Made by a program: the position numbers and the translations under genes. A model generated the notes under the pieces. It had not been told where the DNA came from. It was given only the letters and a program-made list of their open reading frames with translations, and did not search any database. A stretch of DNA of 64,000 bases from Flaviaesturariibacter aridisoli (GTDB lineage Bacteria > Bacteroidota > Bacteroidia > Chitinophagales > Chitinophagaceae), in contig NZ_SKFH01000002.1 in assembly GCF_004343705.1 (NCBI RefSeq), forward strand, positions 124,001-188,000. Direction: 5' to 3'. Below, piece after piece: positions 1,288 to 64,000 of this stretch (its first letter is position 1; each line of letters begins with the position of its first letter).

Positions 1288-1317
1288 GTGTCACGGTTGA
1301 CGATTCACGATTCACGC
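1288..1317. repeat. Heptamer-word intergenic repeat (GATTCAC type)
   Basis: The words TCACGGTTGAC and GATTCACGATTCACG repeat with period 7 and run into the stop codon of pepT (1312-1314). A related GTGAGCC/CTCACGC element occurs at 63272-63393. The function is unknown. It is one of a set of spacers in this window with the same architecture. Confidence 0.5.
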
Positions 1318-2570: not shown

Positions 2571-2600
2571 GGGGTAATGGGAGAATGGGAGAATGGGGGG
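2571..2600. repeat. ATGGGAGA tandem intergenic repeat
   Basis: The word ATGGGAGA recurs about three times with period 8 between the pepT promoter box and the terminator of the FKBP gene. The complementary word type (CCCATTA) occurs at 59085-59122. Function unknown. Confidence 0.5.
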
Positions 2601-4558: not shown

Positions 4559-4677
4559 ACCGCGAAGAAAAGAAGAGAAAAAGGTGTTTCGCAAAGAATA
4601 CGAAAATGGCCCGCCTGTGGCGAATCTGTTTAATTTTCTCTTCGCGTGCCAACTTCTTTTCTTTTTCTCTTCGCGGT
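4559..4677. repeat. Intergenic inverted/direct repeat (CTCTTCGCG type)
   Basis: ACCGCGAAGA (4559-4568) is the exact reverse complement of TCTTCGCGGT (4668-4677). TTCTCTTCGCG occurs twice directly (4636-4646 and 4665-4675), and the rest is purine/pyrimidine-skewed. It fills the spacer between the NamZ gene and fmt. A related phrase (CCTTGGCG ... CCAAGGCG) lies at 61627-61671. No gene is seen here. Confidence 0.5.
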
Positions 4678-29029: not shown

Positions 29030-29069
29030 TTACAAACTTGAAACCCGAAACCGGAAACCGGAAACTTCA
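29030..29069. repeat. GAAACCG heptamer-word repeat
   Basis: The word GAAACCG or close variants repeats about four times with period 7 between tRNA-Val and the proline dehydrogenase stop. No inverted partner was found next to it. Confidence 0.45.
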
Positions 29070-30302: not shown

Positions 30303-30325
30303 ATGCACCGCGAAGGTACATACAA

Positions 30326-30366
30326 AGGTTCTTAAGGTTTTTCAGGTTCTTCAGGTTCTATTGGTT
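30326..30366. repeat. TTCAGGTTC tandem intergenic repeat
   Basis: Words of the form TTCAGGTTCT repeat with period 9 upstream of proline dehydrogenase. Same architecture as the other spacer repeats, different word. Confidence 0.45.
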
Positions 30367-31160: not shown

Positions 31161-31195
31161 CAACTACAAACTTCAAACTACAAACTACATACTTC
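31161..31195. repeat. ACTACAA heptamer-word repeat
   Basis: ACTACAAACTTCAAACTACA and further copies, period 7, ending directly at the stop of the acyltransferase gene. The same word is used in the right arm at 41407-41439 and, as complement, at 43911-43946. Confidence 0.5.
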
Positions 31196-41036: not shown

Positions 41037-41088
41037 ACTGTTTGATTTTTACTTTCGGGGAATCGCCCCTCGCATTAATAAATAATAA

Positions 41089-41154
41089 AGTCGGAAAGTA
41101 GAAAGCCGGAAGTAAAGGCCGGAACCAATTCCGACTTCCCACTTCCGACTTCCT
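41089..41154. repeat. Inverted heptamer-word repeat between rplO and rpmD (CTTCCGA type)
   Basis: Left arm 41089-41124 carries AGTCGGAAAGTAGAAAG and GCCGGAAGT; right arm 41129-41154 carries TTCCGACTTCCCACTTCCGA. The arms pair imperfectly around a very short loop. The same words form the element at 43566-43629. It lies in the middle of an operon, so it must be transcribed and would fold in the mRNA. Confidence 0.6.
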
Positions 41155-41161
41155 GACTGAA

Positions 41162-41344
41162 TTAGGCTACTTCTTCTACGGAGAGCATGTGCTCCACCTT
41201 GCGGATCATACCCAGGATCTGGGGGGTACCTTCCACTTCACGGGAAGCGTTCATCTTGTTCAGACCCAGGGCCTGCAGCGTCAGCTTCTGGCGCTCGGGG
41301 CGGTCGATGGGGCTTTTCACCAGTGTGATCTTGATCTTTTTCAT
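41162..41344 (-). CDS. rpmD: 50S ribosomal protein L30 (uL30)
   Basis: 60 residues, the normal bacterial length; IKITLVKSPIDRPERQKLTLQALGL and the C-terminal ILGMIRKVEHMLSVEEV are diagnostic. It sits between rpsE and rplO, with unusual repeat-filled spacers on both sides. Confidence 0.97.
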   Translation of the reverse strand: MKKIKITLVKSPIDRPERQKLTLQALGLNKMNASREVEGTPQILGMIRKVEHMLSVEEVA

Positions 41345-41351
41345 TGCAAAA

Positions 41352-41439
41352 AGTTTGTGGTCTGTGGTTTGTCGTTTGTGGTTCCTCTGCAGTTTCCGGC
41401 GTCAGCCAACTACAAACCACAAACTACAAACTACAAACT
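41352..41439. repeat. Long inverted heptamer-word repeat between rpsE and rpmD (TTTGTGG/CTACAAA)
   Basis: Left arm 41352-41382 consists of GTTTGTGG-type words with period about 7-9; right arm 41407-41439 consists of CTACAAAC-type words complementary to it, with a 24-nt loop. This is the clearest example of the tandem-word inverted repeats in the window. It fills the whole 99-bp spacer of a ribosomal protein operon. Confidence 0.65.
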
Positions 41440-41443
41440 CGGA

Positions 41444-41962
41444 TTATCCGTTAAAGACTTTCTTCAGGTTCACGTTGCGCTGGCGGGCTACACCGATGGG
41501 CTCACGCAGCATGGCGAGGGCTTCGAAGGTAGCTTTCACCACGTTGTGGGGGTTGGCGGAACCCAGCGACTTGGCCAGAACGTCGGTGATACCGGCGCTC
41601 TCGAGCACGGCGCGCATCGAGCCTCCTGCGATCACACCCGTACCGTGAGCGGCGGGCTTGATCAGAACCTTGGCGGCGCCAATGCGGGCGAGCTGGTCGT
41701 GGGGAATCGTACCGTGCATCACCGGAACCTTGATGAGGTTCTTCTTGGCATCTTCGATACCCTTGGTGATGGCTTCCTGTACTTCTTTTGCCTTACCGAG
41801 GCCATGGCCAACGACACCTTGTTCGTTGCCCACCACCACCAGAGCCGAGAAGCTGAAGGTACGGCCACCTTTGGTGGTCTTCACAACGCGGTTGATGGCG
41901 ACAACCTTCTCTTTCAGTTCCAGGTCGCCGGCTTTTACTCGGTTTAAGATTGCTTTTGCCAT
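41444..41962 (-). CDS. rpsE: 30S ribosomal protein S5 (uS5)
   Basis: The 172-residue protein has the double-stranded-RNA-binding-like N-domain ([33 protein letters not shown]) and the C-domain with [28 protein letters not shown]. It shapes the decoding site and mRNA entry. Upstream spacer to rplR is 40 bp. The long motif is given only in part here: [17 protein letters not shown]. Confidence 0.98.
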
Positions 41963-43557: not shown

Positions 43558-43565
43558 GAGAAATA

Positions 43566-43629
43566 AGTCGGAAGTGCGAAGTGGGAACTCGGAAGTAAGG
43601 TTTACTTCACACTTCCGCCTTCCGACTTT
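43566..43629. repeat. Inverted heptamer-word repeat between rpsN and rpsH (CTTCCGA type)
   Basis: Left arm AGTCGGAAGTGCGAAGTGG with CTCGGAAGT; right arm ACTTCACACTTCCGCCTTCC and GACTT. Same word family as 41089-41154. It forms a stem with a loop of about five bases, in a 184-bp intra-operonic spacer. Confidence 0.6.
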
Positions 43630-43910: not shown

Positions 43911-43946
43911 ATTGTTTGTAGTTTGTTGTTTGTAGTTTGTCGTTGA
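43911..43946. repeat. TTTGTAG heptamer-word repeat between rplE and rpsN
   Basis: TTGTTTGTAGTTTGTTGTTT and a further TGTAGTTTGTCG, period 7. Only one arm is present; it is the complement of the CTACAAA words at 31161 and 41407. Confidence 0.5.
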
Positions 43947-46542: not shown

Positions 46543-46649
46543 GATCGGATCGCTCCGATCACGTTATGTTATTGTTTTCAATTCGATGTCTGATTTCTGA
46601 TGTCGGATGTCTGATAAATCTGAGATCAGACATCAGCGATCAGAGATCT
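46543..46649. repeat. Paired hairpins and word repeat between rpsC and rplP (TGATTTCTGATG type)
   Basis: GATCGGA/TCCGATC is a perfect 7-bp hairpin (46543-46549, 46554-46560). Next come GATGTCTGATTTCTGATGTC words (46586-46614) and their approximate reverse complement CTGAGATCAGACATCAGCGA (46620-46649). The 123-bp spacer is intra-operonic and would fold in the mRNA. Confidence 0.6.
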
Positions 46650-46650
46650 C

Positions 46651-47442
46651 TTAGCGACGGCCACCGCCACCACTGCGTCCACCACGGTCACCACCACGGC
46701 CACCACGGTCGCCACCACGGCCACCACGATCGCGATCGCGGTCGAAACCACCCGTGCTGCGGGGGCCCTGGTTCTGCTCGTTGCCGATGATGTTGGGGTT
46801 CAGATCGCGCTTCACCAGAACCTCACCTTTACAGATCCATACTTTGATACCGATCTTACCGTAAACCGTTTGCGCGAATACGTTGGCGTAGTCGATGTCC
46901 ATACGGAAGGTGTGCAGGGGCACGCGGCCTTGCATGAACGATTCGTTACGGGCGATCTCCGCGCCGGCCAGGCGGCCGCTCAGCTTGATCTTGATGCCTT
47001 CGGCGCCCATGCGGAGCGTGGAGGCAATCGCCATCTTGGTAGCGCGCTTGAAATTGATGCGGTTCTCGATCTGGCGGGCAATGGTGTCGCCCACGATCAT
47101 GGCGTCCAGCTCGGGACGACGGATCTCCAGGATGTTGATCTGCACATCTTCCTTACCGGTCAGCTTCTTCAGCTCTTCCTTGATGCGGTCTACCTCACCA
47201 CCACCTTTACCGATGATGATACCCGGCTTCGAGGTGTGGATCGTCACGATCAGCTTACCGAGCGTGCGCTCAATAACGATCTTGGAGATACCACCCTTGT
47301 TGATGCGGGCGTTCAGGTAGGTGCGGATCTTGTTGTCTTCGATCAGCTTGTTGGCAAAGTCTTTCTTGTTACCATACCAGTTAGATTCCCATCCACGGAT
47401 GATACCTAAGCGGTTACCAATCGGATTTGCTTTTTGACCCAT
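46651..47442 (-). CDS. rpsC: 30S ribosomal protein S3 (uS3) with RGG-rich tail
   Basis: 263 residues. The core (1-about 210) has [20 protein letters not shown], the KH-type [14 protein letters not shown] and [11 protein letters not shown]. The last 50 residues are a low-complexity Gly/Arg/Asp tail with [10 protein letters not shown] repeats ending GGGGRR. S3 lines the mRNA entry tunnel and has helicase function; an RGG tail could add RNA contacts. Many S3 proteins have variable C-termini, but this one is long. Confidence 0.97.
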
Positions 47443-54836: not shown

Positions 54837-55022
54837 ATGAAAAAGACCGCATACTTATCATGTGGAAAAACAATGTTTGTTAAACCGGAAGCGGTACCAA
54901 AGCGCCTTCGCGCCGTTTAAAAACGTAGCTTCGGACGCCTGTGCATAATTTTTGCAAATCATTTACACTGTTGTAATTTTCGATCAGAAAATTGAATCAC
55001 CCCACATCAAAACCCATTAAAC

Positions 55023-55898
55023 ATGGCAAAAGCAAGCAAGAAAGCTGCTCCCAAAAAAGCCGCCGCTTCCAAAGGCGGACGGGCCACGGCTAAAAAGGCC
55101 CCCGCAAAAGCGGCTCCGAAAAAGGCAGCTGCAAAAAAGGCGGCTCCGAAAAAAGCCGCTGTAAAGAAAGCGGCGCCCAAAAAAGCGGCCGCTAAAAAGG
55201 CAGCCCCCCGGAAAGCCGCCGCCAAAAAAGCGGCGCCCAAAAAGGCAGCCAAGAAAGCGGCGCCCAAAAAAGCAGCCATCAAGAAAGCCGTAGCCAAAAA
55301 AGCAGCACCGAAAAAAGCAGCCGCTAAGAAAGCAGCACCCAAGAAGGCCGCCCCGGCCAAAAAAGGCGCTGCCAAGAAGGCGGCGCCCGCCCGGAAAGCT
55401 GCCCCGGCCAAGAAGGCGGCGCCCGCGAAAAAAGCCGCCGCGAAAAAAGCAGCTCCCGCGAAGAAGGCCGCTCCCGCAAAAAAAGCAGCTCCCGCTAAAA
55501 AGGCAGCTTCGGCTAAGAAAGCCGCCCCGGCCAGGAAAGCCGCTGCCAAAGGCGCTCCTCAGAAAGCAGCAGCAGCCCGCCGCAACCCCGGTGGCGGTGG
55601 CGGCACCCGCGCCAACGCCGGCTCACGCACGGCGCAGGGCGGTAACAGCGGCACGACCGGCGCCATGGGCAAAAACGGCCGCAACAACAACGCCGAACTG
55701 ACCCGCACCGGGAATACCTATGGCCTCAGCAACGACCGCGACCAGGCCATGGATGTGGATTCGGGCAGCTCGATGCCCGCCGATACGGCCCTGGGCAACG
55801 ATACGAGCCTCACCGACGTGCTGGGCGGCGACGCCACCGGTGGCAGCACCGGCAGCGAAATCGGCGGCGGCACTACGGACACCGCTGAGGAAATGTAA
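55023..55898 (+). CDS. Histone H1-like Lys/Ala/Pro-rich protein with acidic tail
   Basis: The 291-residue protein is split in composition. Residues 1-about 185 are almost only Lys, Ala and Pro in short repeats, first of the form KKAAPKKAAA, later PAKKAAPAKKAA. This matches the lysine-rich, H1-like nucleoid proteins of bacteria (AlgP, HctB, BpH1 types). The last 100 residues are Gly/Asn/Thr/Asp-rich and acidic (GNTYGLSNDRDQAMDVDSG, ending DTAEEM). DNA or RNA binding and compaction is the likely role of the basic part; the acidic tail may modulate it. It sits on the opposite strand between fusA and rpsG, with its own terminator. Confidence 0.85.
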   Translation: MAKASKKAAPKKAAASKGGRATAKKAPAKAAPKKAAAKKAAPKKAAVKKAAPKKAAAKKAAPRKAAAKKAAPKKAAKKAAPKKAAIKKAVAKKAAPKKAAAKKAAPKKAAPAKKGAAKKAAPARKAAPAKKAAPAKKAAAKKAAPAKKAAPAKKAAPAKKAASAKKAAPARKAAAKGAPQKAAAARRNPGGGGGTRANAGSRTAQGGNSGTTGAMGKNGRNNNAELTRTGNTYGLSNDRDQAMDVDSGSSMPADTALGNDTSLTDVLGGDATGGSTGSEIGGGTTDTAEEM

Positions 55899-59024: not shown

Positions 59025-59126
59025 GAATTGGTCTATTTGTCGTTTGGTTTTTGGCCGGATGGTAACAGGGACCTGCCAACCCGACCCATTACCCCATCAG
59101 CCGACAGCCCCATTATCCCATTACAA
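59025..59126. repeat. Intergenic repeat cluster (GGTAACAGGGACC and CCCATTA words)
   Basis: AATTGGTCTATTTG and GGTAACAGGGACCTGCC (59025-59078) parallel the element at 30991-31038. They are followed by CCCATTACCCCATCAGCC and CCCCATTATCCCATTACA (59085-59122), words complementary to the ATGGGAGA repeat at 2571-2600. It fills the 130-bp gap before rdgB. Confidence 0.5.
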
Positions 59127-63244: not shown

Positions 63245-63271
63245 AATGCGGTCAAAACTGGGATGGCCAAA

Positions 63272-63393
63272 GGCGTCAGGCGTGAAGCGTGAGCCGTCAA
63301 CCGTGAGCCGTGAGCACGCATTGCGCGCAAAAAAAGAACGGATGCCGATGGCATCCGTTCTTTCGTCGCAGGCGTCAGCGCTCACGCGTCACG
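63272..63393. repeat. Inverted GTGAGCC/CGCTCACG word repeat around a terminator
   Basis: Left arm 63272-63318 has GGCGTCAGGCGTGAAGCGTG and CCGTGAGCCGTGAGCACG; right arm 63371-63393 has GGCGTCAGCGCTCACGCGTC. The arms are partly complementary and enclose the 14-bp terminator hairpin. The right arm runs into the 3' end of the TPR gene. Confidence 0.55.
63333..63363. terminator. Strong hairpin after the TPR gene
   Basis: AAAGAACGGATGCC/GGCATCCGTTCTTT, a perfect 14-bp stem with a GAT loop, A/T-flanked, located 26 bp after the TPR gene stop on the minus strand. Confidence 0.88.
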
Positions 63394-64000
63394 TCTTCCG
63401 CTTACCGCGCTTGTTCCGTGCGATCACCTCCACTACCTGCTGGTTTTGCAGCAGCTCGGGGCAAAGCTCCAGGAAGCGGTTGAGCAGCTTCGGCGCGGCC
63501 TGCAGGGCGGTTTCCAGCGTCAGGAGGCCTTCCTTGCTCTGGCCCAGGGCCATCTGCACGGCGGCTAGGTAGTAGATGAACAGCGGCTTGCGCTCGGTCT
63601 GCTCCAGCGCGGCATACGTTTGCACCAGCGCCTCGTCGTAGAAACCTGCGCTGAACAGGCAGCGGATCAAGGCCTCCCAGCCGCTTTTGTTGCGCGGCTT
63701 ATTGCCGACCACGATCGAGAAGTAGTGGATCGCCTCCTTGAAGGCGCCCAGCTGCAGCTGGCACTCGCCCATCAGGAGGTTGTATTCGTTCTGCTGGCGG
63801 TTCAGGCGCAAGGCTGCCTCAAGCTGCTTGACAGCGGCGCTCCACTGCTGCTCGTTGTAATAGGTGCAGGCGATCTTGTAGTGCAGGCGGCCGTCTTCCG
63901 GATTGAGGTGTACGGCTTTGCGGTAGTTAAAACGTGCCTGGGCCCAGTTGCGCAGCTTGTCGTAGCAATGACCGATGGCTTCGTAAATGACGTCTTCGGG
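63389..64000 (-). CDS. Tetratricopeptide-repeat protein (5' part outside the window)
   Basis: The frame is open to the right window edge; an apparent start inside (TTG) is not used because TPR units continue upstream (EAIGHCYDKLRNWAQARFNY, LHYKIACTYYNEQQWSAAVK). The visible 203 residues hold at least four to five TPRs, for example YNLLMGECQLQLGAFKEAIH and WEALIRCLFSAGFYDEALVQ, and end with a basic NKRGKRKT. Probably a scaffold protein; which system it serves is unknown. A strong hairpin follows. Confidence 0.85.
   Translation of the reverse strand, partial: PEDVIYEAIGHCYDKLRNWAQARFNYRKAVHLNPEDGRLHYKIACTYYNEQQWSAAVKQLEAALRLNRQQNEYNLLMGECQLQLGAFKEAIHYFSIVVGNKPRNKSGWEALIRCLFSAGFYDEALVQTYAALEQTERKPLFIYYLAAVQMALGQSKEGLLTLETALQAAPKLLNRFLELCPELLQNQQVVEVIARNKRGKRKT

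Follow-up and report, generated by a model that had tools for sequence, protein, structure and literature searches.

Tandem heptamers with inverted partners in the intergenic spacers of Flaviaesturariibacter aridisoli, which may be made and remade at the DNA level

The window analysed here is a stretch of 64,000 nucleotides (positions 124001-188000 of contig C2 of genome G000, an assembly of 4.37 Mb in 84 contigs), and it includes a ribosomal-protein operon in which the spacer separating the ribosomal protein genes S5 and L30 is occupied by a long hairpin (Table 1). The two arms have 32 nt each and enclose a loop of 24 nt. Watson-Crick pairs are formed at 27 of the 32 positions, and the five mismatches are, on the transcribed strand, three A-C, one G-U and one G-G. 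A preliminary description of this DNA had chosen this hairpin as its best case, with arms of about 31 and 33 nt and a 24-nt loop; the hairpin and its loop were found as described and only the arm lengths are corrected here. Folding the RNA of positions 41345-41443 gave -37.1 kcal/mol (z = -4.28), a value equalled by none of 200 shuffled sequences. The closest S5 protein among the matches listed, where very near genomes may be missing, is that of Flavisolibacter sp. RYN_287 (93%), and the other listed matches carry titles of Chitinophagaceae and their kin. The ribosomal stretch of G015, a genome of the same genus, is identical to the Flavisolibacter sp. RYN_287 record.

Table 1. Hairpin arms, arrays and neighbouring genes in the window (positions are those of the window).
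Feature	Position	Strand	Remarks
Focal 5' arm	41408..41439	-	AGTTTGT words on the transcribed strand; 4 nt past the S5 stop codon
Focal loop, 24 nt	41384..41407	-	starts with module GGCTGACGCC, also found beside some other arrays genome-wide
Focal 3' arm	41352..41383	-	ACAAACC/ACAAACG words; ends 7 nt ahead of the L30 start codon
S5 gene (ribosomal protein), adjoining the focal spacer upstream	41444..41962	-	PF00333, E 3.7e-30
L30 gene (ribosomal protein), adjoining the focal spacer downstream	41162..41344	-	PF00327, E 5.6e-21
L30-L15 spacer 5' arm	41129..41151	-	AAGTCGG words
L30-L15 spacer 3' arm	41088..41111	-	degenerate TTCCGAC words
S14-S8 spacer 5' arm	43606..43628	-	AAGTCGG-like words
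S14-S8 spacer 3' arm	43565..43587	-	partner of 43606..43628
S3-L16 spacer 5' arm	46625..46648	-	GATCTCT/GATGTCT words
S3-L16 spacer 3' arm	46592..46615	-	ATCAGAC words
Array upstream of S14	43914..43944	-	ACAAACT words on the coding strand; no clear inverted partner
AACTACA array	31162..31193	.	no clear partner; module CGCGCATCGCGC in the inner flank
GAAACCG array	29040..29065	.	Tandem Repeats Finder
Array of the 9-nt word AAGGTTCTT	30325..30359	.	Tandem Repeats Finder
Array of the 8-nt word AATGGGAG	2576..2597	.	Tandem Repeats Finder
Short TCACGAT array	1291..1316	.	Tandem Repeats Finder
AGGCGTC/CGTGAGC words	63271..63315	.	partner at about 63371-63395 (by eye); the pair brackets a terminator-like hairpin

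The focal spacer is one of about a dozen for which the preliminary description had reported a tandem word, often followed by its reverse complement. Tandem Repeats Finder gave arrays at 10 of the 12 sites (1301, 2571 as an 8-mer, 29030, 30326 as a 9-mer, 31161, 41089, 41352, 43911, 46586 and 63272) and site 43566 was recovered solely as an inverted repeat, making 11 sites for the repeat finders together; the word at 59085 is present by eye, under the thresholds used. An inverted partner is clear at five sites (41352, 43566, 46586, 41089 and, by eye, 63272) and was not seen at the remaining seven.

The arrays were counted in 864 kb of G000, made up of the window and 40 further stretches (800 kb), in which 764 genes called with a purpose-built codon model give 86% coding sequence (746 kb of CDS and 118 kb of intergenic DNA). 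With a threshold score of 12 or more, 48 period-7 arrays were found in the intergenic DNA and 3 in predicted CDS; five dinucleotide shuffles of the intergenic segments contained none. One array listed as CDS (window 43914) falls in a gene start over-extended by the gene caller. Other periods were rare or missing in the same intergenic DNA (6 arrays of period 8, 4 of period 9 and none of periods 4, 5 or 6). The preliminary description had proposed a comparison with shuffled sequence, and by this comparison the feature is confirmed as real and strong. Many unrelated words coexist in this single genome. If the threshold is lowered and CDS hits are counted, the largest word families are AAACTAC (20 arrays), ACGCCTC (13), AAGTCGG (5), AAATCTG (4) and ACATCAG (4). 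Arrays of AAACT words occupy 25 places in the 864 kb, each separated from the next by more than 300 nt. Genome-wide, CTACAAACTACAAA has 169 matches with at most 1 mismatch, overlapping matches counted, and its reversed control 2.

The words are distributed very unevenly among genomes. Triplets of CTACAAA (at most 3 mismatches, overlapping matches counted) occur in 53 of 147 genomes of the family, with more than 30 only in G000 (224), G116 (143), G087 (102) and G003 (58). The reversed word gave 0-13 nearly everywhere, the exceptions being G037 (144) and G076 (41), two genomes that thus carry another word in numbers. Of the 149 genomes searched in the order, five have ACGCCTC triplets (at most 2 mismatches): 324 in G000, 275 in G037, which belongs to another genus, and 1, 2 and 7 in the others; there were none in G133, a congener of G037. 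Period-7 arrays numbered 43 in 19 kb of intergenic DNA of G037 and 0 in 7 kb of G133. Across the intergenic samples of 18 genomes, which together hold 205 arrays of period 7 against 6 of periods 4-6 (sums of the table), density ranges from 0 to 2.2 arrays per kb, seven zeros resting on 4-8 kb each.

The best hairpin was also scored in 1102 spacers of 30-450 nt from five genomes of the genus, every mismatch carrying an equal penalty so that RNA pairing rules introduce no bias. Of the 702 codirectional spacers 134 reached a score of 12 or more, as did 98 of the 185 convergent and 17 of the 211 divergent ones. Heptamer-periodic arms characterise 78 of these 249 hairpins (56 codirectional, 14 convergent and 8 divergent); their median lengths are 22 nt for the stem and 30 nt for the loop, and in codirectional spacers the heptamer hairpins start at a median of 7 nt past the stop codon. 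Among all hairpins of this score, the arms of G000, G002 and G016 show an identity of 0.45, 0.45 and 0.51 at lag 7, compared with values of 0.18-0.35 for lags 3-6 and 8-13; the lag-7 identity falls to 0.37 in G017 and 0.31 in G003. Some arms enclose an ordinary terminator or short palindromes.

The arms have a polarity. Read 5' to 3', which gives the same result on both strands, the G-rich arm comes first by 59:12 in the five genomes (30:1 in G000 and 6:6 in G002), by 82:18 in ribosomal spacers, not all of them heptameric, and by 12:0 in G037. When hairpins of the 18 genomes are counted by context, the ratios are 69:8 in codirectional, 11:2 in divergent and 9:11 in convergent spacers; stricter arrays in convergent spacers do obey the polarity, the paired ones with 8:1 at the left and 3:8 at the right. 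Arrays whose partner is poor (8 of 12 at best) follow the rule as well, since in codirectional spacers G-rich words stand at 13:4 near the stop codon and at 8:19 near the next start (p = 0.005). In G116, where 2 of 18 loci picked by word match form a hairpin of score 12 or more, 13 arrays have a clear skew, and all seven at left edges but none of the six at right edges are G-rich (7:0 and 0:6, p = 0.0006), although their partner scores of 8-11 of 12 mean that some may have partners. G087 showed no orientation rule (8:5 and 3:1). Start codons on the G-rich strand, weighed by eye, are a conceivable reason for the polarity.

Orthologous spacers were compared in the relatives, another check that the preliminary description had proposed, and the plan was found to recur with other words. 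In the S5-L30, L30-L15 and L18-S5 spacers of 13 other members of the genus it is often present with different words, and several spacers are without it. Among 98 ribosomal loci (five of them second copies of the same stretch) 63 have at least one hairpin of score 11 in the spacers covered and 35 have none; arm identity reaches 0.58 at lag 7 and 0.45 at lag 8, while at lags 3-6 and 9-13 it stays within 0.24-0.33. Words with a GTTT core belong to 5 of 12 heptamer hairpins of the S5-L30 spacer and to 3 of 69 from the remaining ribosomal spacers (p = 0.0014); in the S5-L30 spacer this core is kept and the remainder of the word varies. The nearest relative of G000 is G002, with 78% mean protein identity and 144 conserved neighbour pairs, of which 98 have spacers long enough for comparison and 46 were dropped. 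Heptamer hairpins are found in 12 of these 98 spacers in G000 and in 14 in G002, with both genomes having one at 4 (p = 0.067); the corresponding shared cases are 2 of 29 for G016 (p = 0.63), 1 of 55 for G017 (p = 0.56) and 0 of 33 for G003. Persistence of heptamer hairpins is weak and their turnover strong, sharing between orthologous spacers being hardly above chance.

The four hairpins shared by G000 and G002 (window 38, window 43, C2b 17 and C2b 23) have differing words or altered arms, and the sites of several of them can be taken as homologous because their flanks are conserved (by eye). The orthologous S14-S8 spacer of G002, for example, has CTCGGAT words. In eight orthologous comparisons of heptamer hairpins at five loci, three of them in the window, an arm matched its own partner with a mean of 15.3 and the partner of the other species with a mean of 6.4, a result that calls for caution since it is favoured by the choice of hairpins for their self-match. 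In one of the eight, the L30-L15 spacer of G000 and G002, the cross match (17) exceeds the own match of G000 (11); here G002 has a perfect 24-nt stem, GTAAGG/CCTTAC, and the stem of G000 is mismatched. The closest different genomes in the comparison are about 86% identical in nucleotides over the ribosomal region, and at this distance no individual event was captured.

We give nearly an even chance to the reading that these spacers arise and are reshaped at the DNA level, by slippage, template switching and some block copying between loci, and that they are carried and not used as RNA stems; the three kinds of event, and carriage without use, are what we infer from the patterns above. Replication slippage in steps of 7 nt would multiply a short word, and fold-back or template switching at the fork could copy the array in reverse complement, leaving inward-facing arms that bracket the spacer. 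Later recopying of one arm from the other would make both arms change their word together, and blocks consisting of an array and its short inner modules may occasionally be copied to other spacers, giving each genome a vocabulary of its own. Intergenic DNA beside gene ends would tolerate the arrays, which would be excluded from coding DNA because 7 nt shifts the frame. Slippage and fold-back alone appear insufficient, since one word family has 25 separate places in 864 kb and since the same word is abundant in G000 and G037 and missing between them. The polarity and the near-chance sharing of heptamer hairpins between orthologous spacers also weigh against this reading. The preliminary description had argued for a process and against copies of one element. 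One plan with many words speaks for the process, yet the shared inner modules described below and the 25 places indicate some copying between loci, so that both a process and dispersed blocks seem to be at work.

It is rather unlikely, in our judgement, that the spacers are instead a mosaic element dispersed in the genome, either a mini foldback element or the Bacteroidota equivalent of BIME/REPIN, whose heptamer arms surround palindromic modules and terminators and which is moved as a unit by a transposase acting in trans. The polarity resembles that of terminal inverted repeats, and the inner flanks share sequence: pairs of AACTACA arrays with shared 8-mers number 32 of 595 for inner flanks, 18 for outer flanks (partly leftover array letters) and 6 in one shuffle, and for TCACGCC arrays the figures are 21, 6 and 2 of 325. 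Three modules, GCTGGCGYCAGC, CGCGCATCGCGC and GGCGYCAGCC, are found repeatedly next to arrays, and the words adjoining GGCGYCAGCC differ. These shared inner modules point to blocks copied between loci, although most pairs share nothing, and the same holds in comparison with MITEs, where internal sequence is concerned: two word families share some inner modules and most pairs share none. Other word families share flanks little or not at all, as in ACTTCCG arrays (1 of 78 pairs for inner flanks, outer flanks and shuffle alike), and one locus carries different words in different species, both of which speak against such an element. As for the transposase, G000 has 7 Y1_Tnp genes (RAYT-like), and array density is unrelated to gene number in the 18 genomes, some of which were sampled at only 3-8 kb of intergenic DNA (Spearman 0.01 for near-full-length matches and 0.02 for all matches). 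Ten of 30 fetched Y1_Tnp loci, inspected by eye, were mixed: four have other palindromes, three (L223, L213 and L209) a heptamer array within 3.3 kb and three neither. At L223 (about 500-2494) an inverted AACTACA pair about 2 kb apart flanks a Y1_Tnp gene in the genome of the window itself.

Other candidate makers were also considered. A reverse transcriptase (telomerase-like, retron or DGR) is disfavoured by RVT_1, which had no match in the array-rich G000, G002 (85% complete), G016 and G037, and Ku-dependent end joining by Ku, which had none in G037 and G016. With Y1_Tnp not tracking density and with RVT_1 and Ku missing in some array-rich genomes, replication itself is the simplest source left. 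Telomere-like addition at breaks would match the polarity and conflicts with the terminators and shared modules inside the loops. A use of the words as back-up stop codons in all frames was rejected by eye, several of them (AAGTCGG, GGATGTT) containing none. SbcD exceeded the cut-off in G034 alone of 19 genomes and is thus unable to separate array-rich from array-poor genomes. If most members of the family really lack a canonical SbcCD, this may make it easier for palindromes to survive in them.

A more specific proposal, which we consider unlikely, is that of a genome-specific heptamer-writing activity with no need for reverse transcriptase or Ku. It would bracket spacers with its own 7-nt vocabulary, the G-rich strand running from the flanking gene into the spacer even if the second arm is poor or missing, would rewrite both arms of old spacers and would be switched on or off between congeners (2.2 arrays per kb in G037 and none in 7 kb in G133).

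We regard as decidedly unlikely a function at the RNA level, in which hairpins at 3' ends would halt transcription or shield the upstream message. The good folding of the focal RNA, the short distance from the stop codon in codirectional spacers and the fact that hairpins of any kind are commonest in convergent and rarest in divergent spacers would all suit such a role. However, 8 of the 78 heptamer hairpins lie in divergent spacers, T-rich tails (5 or more T within 8 nt past the stem) follow just 22 of the 134 codirectional hairpins, all kinds pooled, and the hairpins of the ribosomal operon sit between genes that are expected to be co-transcribed. Moreover, stems that serve as RNA should tolerate G-U and not A-C mismatches. 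This premise was applied on the transcribed strand to codirectional spacers of the five genomes and ribosomal-operon spacers of the 98 loci, after removal of 45 of 543 hairpins as identical. The heptamer hairpins (n = 165) have no excess of G-U over A-C (57 versus 52, p = 0.70), whereas terminators, a small control (n = 53), have 11 versus 2 (p = 0.02); other hairpins (n = 280) have 54 versus 56. RNA-level maintenance of the arms is thus not supported by the mismatch test. Within the heptamer hairpins the split is 28:34 in the genome samples and 29:18 in ribosomal spacers (p = 0.14), and this lean, which is not significant, leaves room for a weak RNA constraint in the latter.

That DNA- or RNA-binding proteins recognise the words as their sites, with lineage words tracking protein specificity like the regulator proposed for TAACTGA, would account for genome-specific vocabularies and for the orientation to gene edges even with a poor partner, but is very improbable, as the many unrelated words per genome would need many proteins, G087 lacks the orientation rule and a word can be missing from a congener.

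Several known systems invite comparison. REP, BIME and REPIN sequences, associated with RAYT, are palindromic mosaics scattered over intergenic DNA, in many cases close to the 3' ends of genes, and built on a fixed palindrome with its own recognition motif; the present spacers resemble them in being dispersed, intergenic, palindromic and mosaic and in lying often by gene 3' ends, and differ in their variable tandem words and in the missing correlation with Y1_Tnp. The STRR heptanucleotide repeats of cyanobacteria (Calothrix, Nostoc) comprise several intergenic heptamer families, as do the arrays here, and we know of no test of re-wording across species for them. For the Nostoc word GGGGA(C/T)T only a few inverted pairs are reported (PMC4692102).

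The closest likeness is to the GGGAATC arrays of Xanthomonas. One genome is reported to have 186 intergenic arrays, in 70 cases two arrays lie close together in convergent orientation, and the arrays are near the 5' neighbouring gene, 83% of them retaining their context in the sister species (PMC4692102). Both systems consist of intergenic tandem heptamers with inverted array pairs (here 78 heptamer-arm hairpins in five genomes). The Xanthomonas arrays, as far as described there, use one G-rich, quadruplex-prone word, whereas here there are many words per genome, re-worded loci in sister species and some units of 8 or 9 nt; GGGAATC is absent among the array consensus words listed for the 864 kb.

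TAACTGA repeats, described for Beggiatoaceae and five Bacteroidetes, include one inverted case in the 170 sets of the main genome and stand mostly just upstream of starts (PMC4679880). They share with the present arrays their nature as intergenic heptamer direct repeats, a patchy occurrence across phyla and, in some Bacteroidetes, other heptamers nearby; unlike the arrays here they are, as described, a single word, nearly never inverted and mostly just upstream of starts. The same study attributes to Mrazek et al. 2007 the view that 7 nt is a favoured unit of slippage (PMC4679880). The preliminary description knew of no named family, and this has to be revised: intergenic heptanucleotide arrays are known (TAACTGA, the cyanobacterial repeats and long simple sequence repeats), and inverted pairs are reported for GGGAATC in Xanthomonas (PMC4692102).

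Template switching is reported both to create and to mend hairpins and is described for RNA genes (PMC8794818). As in those mutations, one event here could copy a reverse complement and alter both arms at once; unlike the cases described there, the present ones are tandem heptamers in spacers with no clear sign of RNA selection. Inverted repeats past stop codons are also reported for bacteria in general (PMC13155455). Our search, whose scope left subscription journals largely outside, returned nothing on multi-word inverted heptamer spacers in Chitinophagaceae, and the papers found, in their accessible parts, held no match for many words per genome, orthologous re-wording, the mismatch test or the poor-partner orientation rule. 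Intergenic heptamer repeats are thus already known as a kind, and these four points are what is novel here within that literature.

Long stems whose arms change jointly are usually taken as proof of a functional RNA. Dozens of natural stems with word turnover at orthologous loci and no clear RNA selection by the mismatch test could be used as a test bed for hairpin formation by template switching, and the same set is a warning for RNA discovery based on covariation. Moreover, comparative genomics can be used to look for the responsible process, with the polarity and the contrast between congeners as handles.

Some further repeats were observed in the window. An ORF of 291 aa at 55023-55898 on the plus strand contains many tandem repeats of 15-51 nt with AAAAAAGCGGCGCCC-like units and has a weak match, of 26.7 bits and under the cut-off of 40, to the histone H1-like protein HC2 (PF07382); a Pfam search of the overlapping minus-strand ORF 55007-55549 gave no match. 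Tandem repeats of 33 nt and 21 nt lie at 46661-46751, in the part of the gene for ribosomal protein S3 that encodes the C-terminus. Dispersed inverted repeats that are not heptameric, with pairs of ACCGCGAAGAAAAGAAGAG, GTCATTGCGAGC, CTTCGACTNCGCTCAGG and ACGCAGATTTTTTATGATT, occupy spacers of G000 and G002 (for example window 4559-4677). In addition, a dispersed terminator family, GAACGGATGCC...GGCATCCGTTC, is present at several loci of G000 and G002, such as window 63315-63371, and is sometimes placed within heptamer brackets (by eye).
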